The notes under the pieces were generated by a model. That model did not search any database and was not told the origin of the DNA. It was given only the letters and a program-made list of their open reading frames with translations. A stretch of 57,233 nt of DNA, taken from the NCBI GenBank assembly GCA_029062895.1, contig JAIDPF010000029.1, positions 1 through 57,233 on the forward strand. Direction: 5' to 3'. The translations under genes and the position numbers were made by a program. How positions within the stretch are numbered: position 1 is the first letter of the stretch; each line of letters begins with the position of its first letter. This DNA is from Lachnospiraceae bacterium. GTDB taxonomy: Bacteria; Bacillota; Clostridia; Lachnospirales; Lachnospiraceae. Below, one piece after another: positions 6,374 to 32,554 of the stretch.

Positions 6374-7918
6374 TTAATTACCAAACAGATCCCTTGCCAA
6401 TTCCTCAAAATCCTCATCTGACCAGTCATCAATATCCATACCATAAAAATCGACCATTAAAAACTCAAGGAATCCGTCATCAACATACGCGATCAATAAA
6501 TAGGTACATTCATCATCCGACCTTGTCCTGCCGTCATCATAAGTAAAAGATTCTTCCGCAAGGATCAGAGCGCTTCCGTAAAACGCAGTACCGACCACTC
6601 TAAAGTCGCAATCATAATCCAGATAACCATTTTCCTCAATATATTCCCTATCGGAGTCATCTACGCTTTGCCCTCTGGCATAAGCAGTCGCATAAGTATA
6701 TAACGGTTCATACGCCTCATTGCAGATAAAAATATAACCACCGTCTTCATTGACTAAGAACATATCTCTCCCATCGTCAGAATATACATTTAGGGCAGAG
6801 TCATAATACCATGGAGCACTTACGTAGACATCGACAAGTTTTTCACTCGATGCATCGCATTTGTTTAAGGTATAGTATTCTTCATCCTCATATTCATTCG
6901 GGTCTGTTTCAACCGGATCTGTTTCGATCGGATCGTCCCCGATGCTACCCATGAGATCGTTGATAGCGGGCTTTATTTCTATCGCATTGTCTATCACATC
7001 ATCCGGAACCTCTACTTCTGTATCATTGATATCAGAAATCACTGCGGAAAAATATAATTCTAAAAAAGAGAGTTCCTCGATCTCCTCCATGATGCCATAA
7101 TCATCCAGACCGGTACCCTTTACTATCTGCTCTACCAGACCGTAAAGATCTGTATCAGATGCATCCACCTCAATTTTTACCGGATAGCCGGTATCTTCGG
7201 AAATATAACAAGTAATATCCATAGAGATACACTTAAACAAGGCATGCCAATCAATATCTAAATTTATGCCTGCCCCTTCAAACACTTCAGCCATTTCTTC
7301 AAATGCTTCAAACGGATCATCGAAGTCGCTCTGCGCCGGCTTAAAAAAAGCTGATACATCATCTCCTTTGACCGTAGCAGTAATCACATAGCACTCTTCG
7401 CCTTCTACTTTTTCAGTATCTTCGGCAAGTTCTCCATCCTCTTTCAAAACATCCATCAACGCCTCTTTGCGCTCATCAAGCTCAGCTAATGCATCGGATT
7501 TTTCAATTTCAAAATCCATTTCCATCTTACACCATGTGTCCGAATACTCATCGTATAGATAATACGTCATCGGTCCGTCATGAAATACCATATATCCCTT
7601 AAACTCCGAACGGTCTTTCCCCATGGAATCCTCATCCACAGTCATCTTACCATCAGCATAGCATATCAGATCGCCTTTTCTGCCAAGACCGGAAATCTGT
7701 CCCTCACTGTCTAAACTTATAGAGACCTCGGAACTGTCTCCCTGTATAGTCGATGAAATCTCAATATTTGCCTCTATCTCCATTGTCAGAGACTCGATCT
7801 CATTGTCAAACATGCCATCGACAAGAGATTCCACTGTCGGTTTTGGTTTACCGCAGCCTGTCAGCACTACCAGAGAAAGAACTAACGCTACCGCAAGCTT
7901 CATCAGCTTTTTTTTCAT
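6374..7918 (-). CDS. Secreted lipoprotein of unknown function
   Basis: The 514-residue product starts with MKKK, a hydrophobic stretch and a lipobox (LTGC, lipidated Cys22), so it should be anchored to the outer face of the membrane. The mature part is strongly acidic and rich in Asp and Glu. Its N-terminal half has the beta-rich look of LppX/DUF6612-type lipoproteins (IEANIEISSTIQGDSSEVSIS), which is only a resemblance. A low-complexity IETDPVETDPNEYEDEEYY linker separates this from a C-terminal domain of about 160 residues. AGGAG lies nine bases before the ATG. It lies inside the histidine cluster between hisD and hisB, 23 bases before hisB, with no obvious link to histidine synthesis. Confidence 0.75.
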   Translation of the reverse strand: MKKKLMKLAVALVLSLVVLTGCGKPKPTVESLVDGMFDNEIESLTMEIEANIEISSTIQGDSSEVSISLDSEGQISGLGRKGDLICYADGKMTVDEDSMGKDRSEFKGYMVFHDGPMTYYLYDEYSDTWCKMEMDFEIEKSDALAELDERKEALMDVLKEDGELAEDTEKVEGEECYVITATVKGDDVSAFFKPAQSDFDDPFEAFEEMAEVFEGAGINLDIDWHALFKCISMDITCYISEDTGYPVKIEVDASDTDLYGLVEQIVKGTGLDDYGIMEEIEELSFLELYFSAVISDINDTEVEVPDDVIDNAIEIKPAINDLMGSIGDDPIETDPVETDPNEYEDEEYYTLNKCDASSEKLVDVYVSAPWYYDSALNVYSDDGRDMFLVNEDGGYIFICNEAYEPLYTYATAYARGQSVDDSDREYIEENGYLDYDCDFRVVGTAFYGSALILAEESFTYDDGRTRSDDECTYLLIAYVDDGFLEFLMVDFYGMDIDDWSDEDFEELARDLFGN

Positions 7919-7986
7919 CTTTCTTCTCCTAAAACTGTATGGTCATTCAAACTACTCTTTTTGCGCTTTTTAATTATGAAATCCAG

Positions 7987-8081
7987 TTTACATAACTCTT
8001 CGTTAGCACACCGATGTTCCAAAAACATCATAAATGAAATCATTTTTGGAACATCGGTGTGCTAACTTCAAGTTATGTAAA
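7987..8081. repeat. Covarying hairpin element, copy A
   Basis: A near-perfect inverted repeat in the 230-base gap between hisD and the lipoprotein gene. The inner arms are 24 bp and perfect (8002-8025 with 8043-8066). A three-base symmetric internal loop separates them from outer arms of 11 bp (7987-7997 with 8071-8081). The 17-base loop is CATCATAAATGAAATCA. A second copy lies at 19911-20007. The two stems differ at four base pairs, every one compensated, while loop and outer arms are nearly unchanged. No U-tract follows, so it is not a typical terminator. The rest of the gap is AT-rich with nothing else recognised. Confidence 0.9.
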
Positions 8082-8148
8082 ACTTCACTCCAATTCCTAA
8101 TAGAATATATTATACAATGTGCCTATTAAAAAAGCAAGGCAACGCAAA

Positions 8149-9444
8149 TTACCCTTCTGGGAAGCGCACCTGTATGGAATTGGCGTGTGCCGTCAACCCT
8201 TCCTGCTTTGCAAAAAAGATAATGTCTTTATGTGCCTTTTCCAATGCCTCGTAAGAGTATGCGATAATACTGCTTTTCTTCATAAAATCATCCACATTCA
8301 GGGGCGAAAAGAATCTTGCCGTTCCATTGGTAGGCAGGATATGATTGGGTCCCGCAAAGTAATCCCCCAGCGGTTCCGAGGAATACTGTCCCAAAAAGAT
8401 TGCCCCAGCGTTCTTGATCTTTGTCATGACTTCATATGGATCTTTTGTAAGGATCTCCAGATGCTCAGATGCAATCTCATTTGCTGCTTCAATTGCATCT
8501 TCCATTGTATCCGCTACAAAGATTATTCCAAACTGATCTAAGGATTTTTGAATAATTTCAGAGCGTTCCAGTTCTTTCGCCATCCGTTCCACTTCCTTCA
8601 ACACTTTTTCTGCAAGTTCTGAAGATGTTGTAATCATAATAGCAGATGCCATCTCGTCATGTTCCGCCTGAGATAACAGGTCGGCTGCCGCATATAAAGG
8701 ATCCGCCGTCTCATCGGCAAGTACAAGAATCTCGCTGGGCCCCGCCACCGAATCAATGCTTACCTGACCAAAAACCGCTTTTTTTGCAAGGGCAACAAAG
8801 ATATTGCCCGGACCGCAGATCTTATCTGCTTTGGGAATACTCTCTGTTCCATATGCCAATGCCGCGATGGCCTGCGCCCCACCAGCCTTATAGACTTCGT
8901 CAACACCGGCAATCTTTGCAGCCGCCAGTGTGTTAGGATTCACCTTTCCGTCCCTTCCGGGCGGTGTAAGCATGACGATCCGTTCTACTCCGGCAACCTT
9001 AGCCGGAATAATATTCATCAACACTGAGGAAGGATATGCCGCTTTGCCGCCGGGCACATAGACTCCGGCAACTTCCAACGGCGTAAATTTCTGCCCTAAC
9101 ATCGATCCATCCTCTCTTGTATCGATCCAGCTGATCCGTTTTTGTTTCTCATGAAAAGTGCGGATATTCTCTGAAGCCCTTTCCAGAACGCCGATAAATT
9201 CCGGCGGAACCTGCGCCATCGCCTCCGCGATCTCTGCCTCCGTCACCCTGACATTCTCTTTGGAAATCGTAACATGATCAAATTTTTCCGTATATTCAAA
9301 TAACGCCTCATCTTTGCGCGTTTTCACGTCCTCCAGAATCTCCCGGACAGTTTTTTCATATTCCTCAAAATGATTCGTACTGCGTTTCTGCAGCATCTCC
9401 TTTAGTGCGGTTTTATTTTCTTGATTTAAACGTTCAATACGCAT
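8149..9444 (-). CDS. hisD: Histidinol dehydrogenase HisD
   Basis: A 431-residue enzyme that oxidises histidinol to histidine in two NAD-dependent steps. Family hallmarks visible are VPGGKAAYPSSVLMNIIPAKVAGV, KADKICGPGNIFVALAK, DSVAGPSEILV, the zinc-site region SQAEHDEMASA, and the C-terminal GPNHILPTNGTARF. The ATG at 9444 is chosen because GGGAGGGAG lies about seven bases upstream; the frame stays open to 9495 without another ribosome binding site. It directly follows hisG, with the ATG 57 bases after the hisG stop. The covarying hairpin copy A lies downstream. Confidence 0.95.
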   Translation of the reverse strand: MRIERLNQENKTALKEMLQKRSTNHFEEYEKTVREILEDVKTRKDEALFEYTEKFDHVTISKENVRVTEAEIAEAMAQVPPEFIGVLERASENIRTFHEKQKRISWIDTREDGSMLGQKFTPLEVAGVYVPGGKAAYPSSVLMNIIPAKVAGVERIVMLTPPGRDGKVNPNTLAAAKIAGVDEVYKAGGAQAIAALAYGTESIPKADKICGPGNIFVALAKKAVFGQVSIDSVAGPSEILVLADETADPLYAAADLLSQAEHDEMASAIMITTSSELAEKVLKEVERMAKELERSEIIQKSLDQFGIIFVADTMEDAIEAANEIASEHLEILTKDPYEVMTKIKNAGAIFLGQYSSEPLGDYFAGPNHILPTNGTARFFSPLNVDDFMKKSSIIAYSYEALEKAHKDIIFFAKQEGLTAHANSIQVRFPEG

Positions 9445-9500
9445 TGACAGGCTCCCTCCCAGTAATTTATTTTCCAATGTTGATCCCAAAGGCACGTTTT

Positions 9501-17569: not shown

Positions 17570-19807
17570 TCAATATTTGGGTTTCGTTCCTTTTGTATCC
17601 CTGTTTGCTGTACGCATTCTGCTTAGATTCAGATGTTTCTCCTTATATTCAATAATGACATCTTCTGTTCCCTGAACGATATAAGCTGCCTCCAGTTCTT
17701 CCTTGTCCGTGATCTTCATTCCCCGGACGCCCACCGCAGCCTTCTTTTTCTCAGGCACCTCTTCCGCGTCGATCTTTAGGAAATATCCCGCTTTCGACTG
17801 CATCACAAGTTCTTTTTTCTCATTCATCGGAGAGATCAGAAGTACCTCATCCCCATCAAGCAGTTTTGATGCCGCCACAACACGCTTCGCCACGTCAAAT
17901 TCTCCGCCATCTACCACTTTAAGCATTGCCTTCCTTGTGACAAATAATAATCGGTAGAGATTTAATTCCGACTGGGAAGCCACATAAATAATATCTTCCT
18001 TCTGGGAATCATAGCTGCTGACATTATCGATCGGCACTCCCTTATCCCGGAATTTTCCAAAGGGGAAATCCGCCGTCTTAATGGAATATAGCATACCCGT
18101 ATTGGTAAATGCACAAATCTTTCCGGTATTCTTACAAAACACAACGGTAGGAAATTCTGCGTCGATGGTCTCTTTATTTCTCTCATAAGCAGGCACATCA
18201 ATGGTCTTACCATAACCAAAACGGTCCATCAGAAAGACAACATCCATTTCCTCCATCTTCTTTTCTTCAAAAACCGCCTCACTGGCGTTTTCAATGGCTG
18301 TCCTTCTCGGTCTGCCATATTCCTTACGAATATCATCCAGTTCCTGAATAATGACCTGCGCCATAGAATCCCGGCGGTCTAAGATATCCTCATAACGATA
18401 GATATTGGTAGTCGTCTGCTCATATTCCTTCTTTAATGCATTGATCTCCAGACCGATCAGTCGATAAAGTCTTAATTCCAGGATCGCATCCGCCTGACGC
18501 TCCGTAAACCGAAGCATCTGCGCCATGATCTGTGACGCGTTGCTTTGGAATTTAATACCGTCGGTAATCCCTTCTACTAAGCAGTTTTTCGCCATGGCCT
18601 TATCCTTGGAGCCGCGCAGGATCTCGATGATCAGATCAATTACATCACATGCCCTAAGCAGCCCCTCTTGGATCTCTTTCTTTTCCCGCTCTTTTTTCAA
18701 CAACGTTGTATATTTGCGCTGCGCCACCTCAAACTGAAAATCCACATTATGACGGATGATATCACGGATACCCATGGTTTCCGGTCTGCCATCCACGATC
18801 GCCAGCATGTTAACACCAAAGGTATCCTCCAGCTTGGTCTTCTTGTAAAGCATATTGGTAAAATTCTCAACATCCGTATCCTTCTTTAATTCAATGACGA
18901 TACGAATTCCCTCTTTGGAGGACTGATTTGAAATATCAATTACATCTGTAGTCTTTTTATTCTCCACAAGCGCAGCCACATCCTGCAGAAATTTGGAGAT
19001 GTTCTGACCGATCATGGTAAACGGGATCTCCGTGACTACAAGGGCAACCTTTCCCGCCTTGCCCTTCTCTATTTCCACTTTACCGCGCAGCTTGATCTTA
19101 CCCGCACCGGTGCTGTAGATTTCCGCCAGCTCATCCTTATTGATCACAATACCGCCCGTCGGAAAGTCCGGCCCCTTAACATATTTCATCAGTTCTTCTG
19201 TGGAAATCTCCGGATTGCGGATATATGCCTTGGTGGCATCGATTACTTCCACCAGATTGTGCGGCGGAATATTTGTCGCCATACCAACCGCAATACCTTC
19301 CGTTCCATTTACAAGAAGATTCGGAAACTTCGCCGGAAGCACCGTAGGTTCTTTTTCCGTCTCATCAAAGTTAGGCATAAAATCAACCACGTCTTTATCC
19401 AGATCAGCCAGAAGTCCTTCCTGAGTGATCTTCATAAGCCTTGCTTCCGTATATCGCATAGCCGCCGCGCCGTCGCCTTCGATATTGCCAAAGTTGCCAT
19501 GACCGTCTACCAGCGGCAGACCTTTCTTAAAATCCTGCGTCATAACAACCAGCGCATCATAAATGGAACTGTCACCGTGGGGATGGTATTTACCCATGGT
19601 ATCGCCAACAATACGCGCGCTTTTACGGTAAGGTCTGTCATAGCGGATTCCCAGCTCATGCATATCGTATAAAGTTCTTCTCTGCACCGGCTTTAAGCCG
19701 TCCCTGACGTCCGGAAGGGCTCTTGCCACGATGACGCTCATCGCATAGTCTATATATGATTTCTGCATTACCTCAGAATACTCGGTCTTTAAGATTCGAC
19801 TGTCCAT
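17570..19807 (-). CDS. parC: Type IIA topoisomerase subunit A (topoisomerase IV ParC type)
   Basis: A 745-residue DNA-cleaving subunit. The quinolone-determining region and catalytic tyrosine are seen in [24 protein letters not shown] and [11 protein letters not shown]. It cleaves and rejoins DNA with the ATPase subunit encoded by parE upstream. I prefer topoisomerase IV to gyrase because the expected GyrA box (QRRGGKG-like) is absent: the equivalent loop reads [13 protein letters not shown]. The protein is also shorter than a typical GyrA (about 800-870) and is not near dnaA. AAGGAG lies eight bases before the ATG. The 244-base gap to parE holds hairpin copy B. Confidence 0.8.
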
Positions 19808-19910
19808 ATTGGTTACTCCTTGTGCTACTTATTTCTTCGGATCATATCATATAGATTCCGGTATTTTTGCTGTTCAATCTATCATACGGTTTAAATCTGG
19901 TTTAATTCCG

Positions 19911-20007
19911 GTTTACATAACTCTTTGTTTGTACATCTATGTTCCAAAAAAATCATAAATGAAATCATTTTTGGAACATAGATGTACAAACTTCGAGTTA
20001 TGCAAAC
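19911..20007. repeat. Covarying hairpin element, copy B
   Basis: This is the second copy of the element at 7987-8081, here between parE and parC. The inner arms are 24 bp and perfect (19927-19950 with 19968-19991), the loop is AATCATAAATGAAATCA, and the outer arms are GTTTACATAACTC with one mismatch. Compared with copy A, four stem positions differ on each arm, all keeping Watson-Crick pairing. Just downstream, at about 20008-20031, parts of the outer arm (AAGCTATGCAAA) are tandemly repeated. The rest of the 244-base gap shows nothing further. Confidence 0.9.
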
Positions 20008-20051
20008 CTCAAGCTATGCAAATCTCAAGCAAGGATCCATCTATGCTCCTC

Positions 20052-21986
20052 TTAGATGTCCAGCTGCGCTTCCCTTGCATTAGAATAGATAAATGCTTTC
20101 CTCGGCGGTACGTCGTTGCCCATTAGAAGCTCCGTCGTATCACTGGCAATCATGGGATCATCAATGCTGACTAATTTCAGCATCCTCCGTTCCGGATCAA
20201 GCGTCGTCTCCCAGAGCTGCTCCGCATCCATCTCACCAAGTCCCTTATACCGCTGCAGGGTAAACGACCCTTTGTGGGTTTTACGATATCTCGCCAGCGC
20301 AGCATCGTCATAAAGGTATTCCTCCTTGCCCTTTGACGGGATCGCCTTATACAGAGGCGGCATGGCAATATAAACATGTCCCTCCTGAATCAACTCCGGC
20401 ATAAAACGGTAGAATAAGGTCAACAGCAATGTACAGATATGCGCGCCATCCACGTCGGCATCTGCCATGATGATGATCTTGTCATAACGAAGCTTGCTGA
20501 TATCAAAATCATTGCCGTAACCCTCGGAAAACCCGCATCCGAAAGCATTGATCATCGTCTTGATCTCGGCATTGGCAAGCACTTTATCAATACTTGCCTT
20601 CTCTACATTTAAAATCTTACCCCGGATCGGAAGGATCGCCTGATATTCACGGTTTCTTGCCGTCTTTGCGCTGCCTCCAGCCGAATCACCCTCTACGATA
20701 AAGATCTCGCATTTCGAAGCATCCTTAGATCCGCAGTTGGCAAGCTTCCCATTGGAATCAAAAGAAAACTTCTGTTTGCTCAGCATATTGGTCTTTGCTT
20801 TTTCCTCGCTTTTGCGGATCTTTGCAGCTTTCTCCGCACAGCTAATCACATTTTTTAAGGTCTCCAGATTACGGTCAAAATAATGCACCAACTCGTCACC
20901 TGTGATCTTGCTGATTGCTTTTGCCGCGTCCTGATTATCCAATTTTGTTTTGGTCTGCCCCTCAAATCTGGGATCCGGATGTTTGATGCTGATGACAGCT
21001 GTCATGCCGTTACGAACGTCCGCTCCCGTATAATTGGCATCCTTTTCCTTCAGACTGCCAAGCTGCCTTGCATAATTATTGATAACCGTCGTAAAGATGG
21101 TCTTAAAGCCTGTGATATGAGTGCCGCCTTCCGCATTATAGATATTGTTACAAAAGCCAAGGACATTCTCATGAAATTCATTTACATACTGGAATGCGAT
21201 CTGTGCCTGCACGCCTTCTGTCTCACCCTCAAAATAGATCACGTCATGCACCGCTTCTTTCCCCTTATTCAGTTCCTTTACAAAGCCCCGGATACCGTCC
21301 GGCTCGTGATATTCAATGGATTCTTTTTCTTCCCCACGTTTATCTTCAAAAAGAATCGTCAATCCCGGATTCAGATATGCCGTCTCATGCAGACGGCTTT
21401 TGATATCCTCCGCCCGAAACCATGTCCTGTCAAAAATTGTATCATCCGGCGTAAAATTAATGCTTGTCCCTGTCTCCCTGGTTTTCCCGACAACAGGCAA
21501 AAGCCCGTTCACTAACTCAGTTACAGGATGTCCACCATTCTGATACTCATCCGTATAGACACCGCCATTGCGCTTTACCGTGATCTTAAAATGACTGGAA
21601 AGGGCATTAACCACAGAACTGCCGACCCCATGAAGACCTCCGCTTGTCTTATAAGAAGTATCATCAAATTTACCGCCCGCATGAAGCGTTGTCAGGATCA
21701 GACGCTCCGCGCTCATGCCTTTTTCATGCATCTCTACGGGAATACCGCGGCCATTATCCGTAATGGTGGCAGATCCGTCCTTTTCCAGTACCACATGAAT
21801 TTTATCGCAGAATCCCGCCAGATGCTCATCTACAGAATTATCTACAATCTCATATACCAAATGATTCAGACCCTTTACCGATGTACTGCCGATATACATT
21901 CCCGGAAGCTTTCTGACTGCTTCCAGACCGTCCAGCACAGTAATATTCTCTGCTCCATATGTACTGCTGTTTGTATTATTTGCCAT
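20052..21986 (-). CDS. parE: Type IIA topoisomerase subunit B (topoisomerase IV ParE type)
   Basis: The 644-residue ATPase subunit that pairs with the parC product. Visible are the GHKL ATPase motifs (YEIVDNSVDEHLAGFC, TDNGRGIP, GLHGVGSSVVNALS), the Toprim EGDSAGG and metal-binding MADADVDGAHI, and the C-terminal RYKGLGEMDAEQLWETT. The pair arrangement, and the lack of a GyrA box in its partner, favour ParE over GyrB; the two cannot be separated with certainty from this subunit alone. CGGAG precedes the ATG. Confidence 0.82.
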   Translation of the reverse strand: MANNTNSSTYGAENITVLDGLEAVRKLPGMYIGSTSVKGLNHLVYEIVDNSVDEHLAGFCDKIHVVLEKDGSATITDNGRGIPVEMHEKGMSAERLILTTLHAGGKFDDTSYKTSGGLHGVGSSVVNALSSHFKITVKRNGGVYTDEYQNGGHPVTELVNGLLPVVGKTRETGTSINFTPDDTIFDRTWFRAEDIKSRLHETAYLNPGLTILFEDKRGEEKESIEYHEPDGIRGFVKELNKGKEAVHDVIYFEGETEGVQAQIAFQYVNEFHENVLGFCNNIYNAEGGTHITGFKTIFTTVINNYARQLGSLKEKDANYTGADVRNGMTAVISIKHPDPRFEGQTKTKLDNQDAAKAISKITGDELVHYFDRNLETLKNVISCAEKAAKIRKSEEKAKTNMLSKQKFSFDSNGKLANCGSKDASKCEIFIVEGDSAGGSAKTARNREYQAILPIRGKILNVEKASIDKVLANAEIKTMINAFGCGFSEGYGNDFDISKLRYDKIIIMADADVDGAHICTLLLTLFYRFMPELIQEGHVYIAMPPLYKAIPSKGKEEYLYDDAALARYRKTHKGSFTLQRYKGLGEMDAEQLWETTLDPERRMLKLVSIDDPMIASDTTELLMGNDVPPRKAFIYSNAREAQLDI

Positions 21987-32249: not shown

Positions 32250-32554
32250 CGCAGGCATGCGCTTAACTATTGCTGCTCTTGTACAATAGACGCGCAGCGC
32301 AAACATGCCTGCGATGTATTGTCAATGCTGCGCAAATCATTATCTGTGCCTATGCATTGGAAGGAAATTAGAAATTCTTAACATTCCTATCCTATACCCA
32401 GCAATTTCGGAACACGATGTTCCGAAAAGGGGCAATTGAGCCATGGATGGCGAATTTGCCCCTTTTGCGTCCGTCTTCCACAACTTCAATTAGGAATGTT
32501 TAGAATTTCTTATTTCCGTACAGCAGCATAGGCACAGATGATGATTTGCGCAGC
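32250..32554. repeat. Nested imperfect palindrome, non-coding
   Basis: About 305 bases between recG and the FakA-like gene contain stacked inverted repeats: outer arms 32327-32355 with 32526-32554 (28 of 29 matched), middle arms 32363-32389 with 32491-32517 (25 of 27), inner arms 32425-32435 with 32456-32466 (11 of 11), and a small hairpin 32405-32427 (9-bp arms). To the left is another pair, CGCAGGCATG (32250-32259) and CATGCCTGCG (32304-32313). No open frame of note crosses it. It may be a structured RNA or a palindromic mobile remnant. Confidence 0.85.

Follow-up and report, generated by a model that had tools for sequence, protein, structure and literature searches.

What keeps the bases paired in two intergenic hairpins that share a loop and differ in their stems? 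The two hairpins, copy A and copy B, lie within a 57,233-nt stretch of DNA from an uncultured Lachnospiraceae bacterium (hereafter the window), and the original prediction read them either as a functional RNA or protein-bound cruciform, or as a mobile palindrome in which template switching homogenises the arms. Copy A occupies 7982-8090 in the family orientation, with the loop reading CATCATAAATGAAATCA on the plus strand. Read directly on that strand, its 14-nt outer arms (7985-7998, pairing with 8070-8083) are followed by an internal loop of 3+3 nt (7999-8001 and 8067-8069) and by a 24-nt inner left arm (8002-8025) that pairs perfectly with the inner right arm (8043-8066) around a 17-nt loop (8026-8042), which includes the mini-hairpin TCAT-AA-ATGA. 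Copy B (19907-20015, plus strand, oriented as copy A) has the same geometry and the same 14-nt outer arms, with the hairpin spanning 19910-20008, the inner left arm at 19927-19950 pairing with the inner right arm at 19968-19991, and the loop at 19951-19967. Both hairpins and their shared geometry are thus present where they had been placed, the loops are identical at 16 of 17 positions, and the four inner-stem differences that had been claimed (stem positions 24, 26, 30 and 32) are compensated in all four cases. On both strands the two copies fold with energies of -50.4 to -57.7 kcal/mol (z -11.6 to -14.4), and 0 of 200 dinucleotide shuffles fold as well.

The intergenic placement holds for both copies, and all four neighbouring genes are on the minus strand. 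Upstream of copy A is hisD (8149-9495, minus strand; TIGR00069 match) and downstream in the minus-strand direction is a lipoprotein-like gene (DUF6612; 6374-7918, minus strand), the ORF of which starts with MKKKLMKLAVALVLSLVVLTGCGK, judged by eye to be a lipoprotein-type signal. Copy B is flanked by a gyrase/topoisomerase IV subunit B-type gene upstream (20052-21986, minus strand) and a subunit A-type gene downstream (17570-19807, minus strand). Membership of a known RNA family was rejected: the sole Rfam match in the window at gathering score is elsewhere, a TwoAYGGAY RNA motif at 32356-32524 on the plus strand, which at 129.6 bits is far above that score.

We identified about 40 further places for copy A in the source genome (3.07 Mb, 115 contigs) by DNA search. 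A covariance model built from 40 copies of this genome (E <= 0.001, counting the best strand per place) found 45 places there and 114 in four congeners, namely 44 in G008, 35 in G012, 13 in G016 and 22 in G022. No place was found at this threshold in 30 other genomes of the genus, and among 40 relatives a marginal match (E = 8.6e-4) came from G025, which belongs to a different family. From these places 143 copies were extracted, comprising 43 of the 45 in the source genome (the exceptions being L040, which lacks its right arm, and L054, whose core is deleted) and 100 of the 114 in the relatives (the places left out, partial or not fetched, number six for G008, five for G012, one for G016 and two for G022). 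L042 and L051, which are truncated by contig ends, were excluded from the counts. The hairpins at L042, L051, L230, L231, L272, L273, L279, L280 and L285 are interrupted by contig ends or N runs, and draft assemblies therefore undercount the family.

The typical copy is 109 nt long. The family is short, non-coding and dispersed in many copies, and its terminal inverted repeats (GGYTTACATAACTC and GAGTTATGTAAACC) align across copies, as expected of a MITE. Among the 143 extracted copies both the base of the hairpin (TTACATAAC/GTTATGTAA) and its apex (TTCCAAAAA-loop-TTTTTGGAA) are conserved, and roughly ten intervening stem positions are free to vary but stay paired: 59 different left arms occur among 94 full-length copies, and 58 of the 94 have a perfect inner stem. 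The loop contains a mini-hairpin of the form NCAT-AA-ATGN'. Its outer pair is usually T-A, but four copies have C-G, one has A-T and eight have G-C, all but one of the eight in G016; the pair was unscorable in 21 copies outside G016 and one inside it, and two copies with a CAT-GTT-ATG-type loop, misread by the script as having an A-T pair, were not counted. Close to the apex, the left arm of L037, L049, L055, L232, L235, L236, L237, L259, L260, L267, L274 and L278 holds a nested 28-nt hairpin, which reads GAACATCTATGTTCTAACATAGATGTTC or a variant of it. The same site can carry it in one species and be without it in another, and some other copies resemble its deletion relics.

More copies and covariation were the test that had been proposed for this element, and both were found overwhelmingly. 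Across 40 copies of the source genome, 125 cells are changed on both sides of a pair (shuffle mean 31.8, 0 of 500 shuffles as high), and the covariation score is 0.270 as against 0.089 in shuffles. Together with the very stable fold on both strands, these statistics favour a functional structured RNA, where the hairpin would be transcribed in the 3' or intergenic part of an mRNA and selection for pairing would compensate the stem. The covariation test alone, however, cannot separate the RNA reading from the template-switching reading; a separation of RNA from DNA causes comes from comparison at orthologous sites. Based on flank matches, we obtained 35 ortholog sets, in which 29 of the 43 extracted copies of the source genome have at least one ortholog (three of the 29 in one mixed set), indicating that most of these copies were inserted before the species split. 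For the fixed-site comparison we took one ortholog pair per locus at 34 loci; a mixed group of five copies was excluded from this, from the transversion count and from the allele-sharing count, and copies with the nested hairpin or of odd length contributed stem positions 21-37 only.

At fixed sites the inner stem changes in matched pairs and the outer stem does not. In 723 inner pair cells there were 34 both-sided changes, 33 of them from one Watson-Crick pair to another, and 49 one-sided changes, 17 of which came from a single ortholog pair misaligned by an indel. Among 465 outer cells there were 40 one-sided changes and no both-sided change (p = 1.6e-7 against the inner stem), a result that argues against an RNA, since the outer stem is equally part of the fold. 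Replacing the misaligned pair gave 32 both-sided and 32 one-sided inner changes over the 34 loci, an equality that speaks against instant correction, so any repair of the stem is not instantaneous. An alternative set of 19 full-length pairs, without the nested-hairpin and odd-length copies, gave 24 both-sided and 15 one-sided inner changes, as against one both-sided outer change, in which pairing was not restored, and 30 one-sided. For example, copy A of the source genome differs from that of G008 at three stem pairs, all three compensated, and the G008/G022 allele of copy B differs from the allele of the source genome and G012 by three compensated pairs, with one further one-sided change between the source genome and G008. 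Each of four genomes has a stem of its own at L043 (C53:9737-9845), and none of these stems occurs at another locus.

The kinds of change that restore pairing also bear on the RNA reading. Transversions make up 14 of the 32 compensated changes as against 770 of 2520 (31%) in the flanks (p = 0.12), so that double changes did not pass mainly through G-U, and transversional ones are as common as mutation predicts. Inner mispairs in the 94 full-length copies (2256 cells) comprise 23 CA+AC, 12 TG+GT and 14 others; as wobbles these correspond to 12 on the plus strand and 23 on the minus strand (p = 0.09), and plus-strand G-U is not preferred among the mispairs. Of 77 independent loci, 68 could be classified using crude ORF calls, and although 58 of these 68 lie between codirectional genes, a figure that would suit an RNA and has no genome-wide control, the orientation of the hairpin to the tandem genes at the 58 loci is random (32 sense, 26 antisense). 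In addition, the copies gave no Rfam match at gathering score; with the threshold relaxed to E <= 1, only animal and plant microRNA models far below their cut-offs and one weak sRNA match outside the element appeared.

The clearest trace of arm copying is in the internal loop, which is fully complementary in only two of the 94 full-length copies, L011 and L019 of the source genome. At L011 the sequence AAA is the exact complement of the left arm, whereas the G012 ortholog still has the open form TTC, and thus a run of bases was rewritten as the complement of the opposite arm; L019 has no ortholog. Template switching is described as fixing stems while keeping the loop, and matched stem changes in tracts of this type are the signature given for it in the relevant passages of PMC8794818. 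The fixed-site compensation of the inner stem, the L011 and L019 tracts and the transversions all favour homogenisation of the arms by template switching. Hairpins A and B belong to a MITE-like, non-coding palindromic repeat of about 110 bp that is dispersed and confined to one clade, and we consider it likely that its arms are copied onto each other on DNA. Template-switch mutation is here deduced from comparing copies, and no mutation event was observed. A replication fork would meet the palindrome, and the nascent strand may then fold back or switch strand at the perfect inner stem, so that one arm is copied as the template for the other and a point mutation would be either erased or written into both. 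Deletion between short repeats also removes the core of some copies, and other copies may have overwritten part of the stems and loops. In transcripts the hairpin would simply form a long stem, any effect of which on the mRNA is hypothetical.

The insertion history of individual loci was read from orthologous gaps. For copy B the same gap is occupied in the source genome, G012, G008 and G022, and in a record taken to be G016 the hairpin is half deleted between CATAGATG repeats. Copy A is common to the source genome and G008; G022 matches only its right end, and G016 has neither copy A nor the lipoprotein-like gene. The core has been lost in the source genome at L044, L057 and L054, where the hairpin is present in relatives. 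Of two loci tested for presence and absence, L020 is absent from G016 and L023 from G008, with no clear target duplication at either, and deletion is an equally possible cause. No transposase with matching ends was found, a result limited by assemblies that break or carry N runs at these hairpins; the known MITE family with transposase-matching ends that the original prediction had considered was likewise not found. The assignment is to a MITE-like repeat, without proof of transposition.

The hairpin also sits within longer repeated sequence. In at least 17 of the 43 extracted copies of the source genome it is inside a larger repeat with ends TAGGTAATTGCGAAA...TTTCGCAATTACCTA, and at least ten loci of this genome are hairpin-less or core-deleted forms. 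Places with the arm motif that were read, from the first 100 of 121, were hairpins, hairpin-less short forms or isolated matches. We also noted another type of dispersed repeat, about 85 bp long and bounded by AGGTAATTGCGAAA...TTTCGCAATTACCT, at L045, L047, L050, L052, L053, L056, L060 and L063 of the source genome; in other loci the hairpin sits inside it. A recurring segment, GTTGTGCAATGCAGACCATATCATACGCCGGGTGCTTGTGCGCTC with variants, was seen downstream of some copies (L027, L033, L049 and L063), and in the right flank of L016 of the source genome direct repeats of a CCTGACAAAATCTACTTTCAGATTGTGTAATCCCTTTATA-like unit adjoin the hairpin. At L009 (source genome) and L081 (G012) the larger repeat encloses a hairpin interior of opposite orientation, an arrangement that arm-to-arm recombination or strand-switch template switching would yield.

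Template switching accounts for the pairing of the stem and does not explain the low divergence of the apex. In 18 ortholog pairs without G016, from which nested-hairpin and odd-length copies were also absent, the 35 nt of apical stem and loop carry 9 differences in 630 sites, and adjacent DNA up to 80 nt away carries 165 in 1827 (p = 5e-13), an approximately six-fold lower divergence measured against adjacent columns that came only from well-aligned windows and are therefore biased low. The variable stem (5.2%) and the outer arms (5.0%) are also somewhat less divergent than adjacent DNA (9.0%; p = 0.004 and 0.002). Pair 47:56 of the loop mini-hairpin, which lies outside the long stem, covaries (T-A, G-C, C-G and A-T), and the change from T-A to G-C is found in 7 of 12 G016 copies versus 1 of 131 others (21 of the 131 unscorable). 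At L267, G016 combines the new loop with the stem specific to that locus. The slow apex reflects either selection on the apex or conversion among copies, and the G016 loop change fits both; conservation of the apex at orthologous sites would also suit an RNA. A trans-acting factor or conversion between copies is a possible cause of the pattern of apex and G016 loop.

One reading would join a factor of this kind to template switching: a folded single-stranded hairpin would be read by a lineage-specific factor, with base and apex as recognition sites under selection at each locus, the stem free in sequence and kept paired by template switching, and the G016 apex shifting from T-A to G-C in concert across loci since its factor changed. 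If true, many sites would be evolving jointly with a protein, either a recombinase or an architectural one; we regard this as doubtful. It is unlikely that the repeat is simply a protein-recognised DNA hairpin or cruciform, whose base (TTACATAAC/GTTATGTAA) and apex bind a recombinase or structural protein while the intervening stem must only pair. The conserved base and apex around a variable paired stem are what such recognition would leave, the coordinated change in the 7 of 12 G016 copies looks as if the recognising factor had changed, and L267 joins a locus-specific stem to the new loop. However, conversion between copies would explain the G016 loop equally well and no protein emerged as a candidate: of 35 genomes of the genus 15 have Y1 transposases, but only three of the five carriers do, and the likeness of the base to a XerD arm is a tentative lead, the one likely dif site being that of G008. 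Because the apex is conserved at orthologous sites, the cruciform half of the first reading keeps a small probability; the functional-RNA half is not supported.

Gene conversion or re-insertion between copies might by itself replace whole hairpins, the arms matching as they did in the donor. Among 17 loci with compensated changes at stem positions 24-35, 9 share one or more of their alleles with other loci, so that overwriting by another copy would account for these changes equally well; TGAAAATATATG, for example, is found at 10 other loci, and the G016 loop variant is spread over several loci. At the remaining 8, which include copy B and L043, both alleles are confined to the locus itself as far as the 143 extracted copies show, so no known paralog is required as a template, although unextracted or unassembled copies could be donors. 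Single-pair changes are common, and the internal-loop tract of L011 copies its own left arm. Conversion alone is thus quite unlikely, and arm-to-arm copying and copying from other copies probably both act. On the favoured reading the hairpin is not a dedicated RNA gene, and with no compensated change among 40 in the outer stem, transversions undepleted at 14 of 32, no plus-strand G-U preference and random orientation, a functional RNA is the least probable reading and a very unlikely one.

Known mobile and recombination systems were considered as origins of the repeat. The Y1 (TnpA-REP) transposase PF01797 is absent from the carriers G008 and G012; single or broken Y1 genes occur in the carriers G000, G016 and G022, and Y1 transposases also occur in 12 non-carriers. 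Its presence does not follow the repeat, and a REPIN/RAYT origin was therefore rejected. Other alternatives are attC, dif and CTX-type sites. A dif pattern search gave one likely site in G008 and none in the source genome. The likely chromosomal dif site of G008 (C103:3189-3211, ATAAAATATATATTATGTAAACT) shares TTATGTAAAC with the base of the hairpin, a segment that we take to be XerD-arm-like; 3-mismatch dif matches in G016 are worthless, as a reversed-pattern control gives up to 2 per genome. A distant BLAST for a plasmid or phage origin gave no match in plasmids or phages (neighbours of the source genome may be omitted there), viral contigs gave no exact core match (the collection may leave out records near this genome), and a pattern scan of genome contigs for a wider distribution returned 0 (records near this genome may be absent).

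REP and REPIN elements with their RAYT transposase are palindromic intergenic repeats, as is the family described here. The present hairpin differs from them in its longer stem and in that the occurrence of Y1 transposases does not track the repeat. According to the passages on ERIC, Correia and QMITE in PMC10969869, bacterial MITEs resemble it in being about 100 bp long, AT-rich, non-coding, mostly intergenic and present in tens of copies, with transcripts that would fold into stable stem-loops. Unlike them, the hairpin repeat showed no target duplication and no parent insertion sequence, and no sequence match to a named MITE family was obtained. Stem-loop repeats of Firmicutes such as Clop-1 (93 bp, C. 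perfringens) and Bcr1 are also similar, by description only, in their low-GC hosts, lengths of about 90-170 bp, 20-100 copies and conserved stem-loop, and the source passages (PMC2267715) carry no discussion of arm homogenisation.

The relevant sections on template-switch mutation and quasi-palindrome correction (PMC8794818, PMC8604942, PMC7202029) describe what is seen here, in that the arms of imperfect repeats become identical while the loop is kept, and multi-base compensatory changes arise without G-U intermediates. These precedents concern RNA genes, yeast genes and E. coli reporters, whereas here template switching is deduced, from what orthologous sites show, for repeats dispersed through uncultured Lachnospiraceae. 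In the open-licence literature we found no description of this repeat and no report that the inner stem of a dispersed bacterial repeat behaves differently from its outer stem. The family is a clade-restricted addition to the known dispersed palindromic repeats of bacteria, the stem covariation of which is best explained by arm-to-arm copying during replication. Covariation is often counted as strong evidence of a functional RNA, and by the usual reading this repeat would pass, since it beats 500 of 500 column shuffles; yet its orthologous copies point to a cause at the DNA level. An inner stem that is compensated and an outer stem that is not, at the same loci and over the same time, provide a natural control and a caution for covariation-based RNA searches, and the family offers many replicate sites for measuring template switching in nature.
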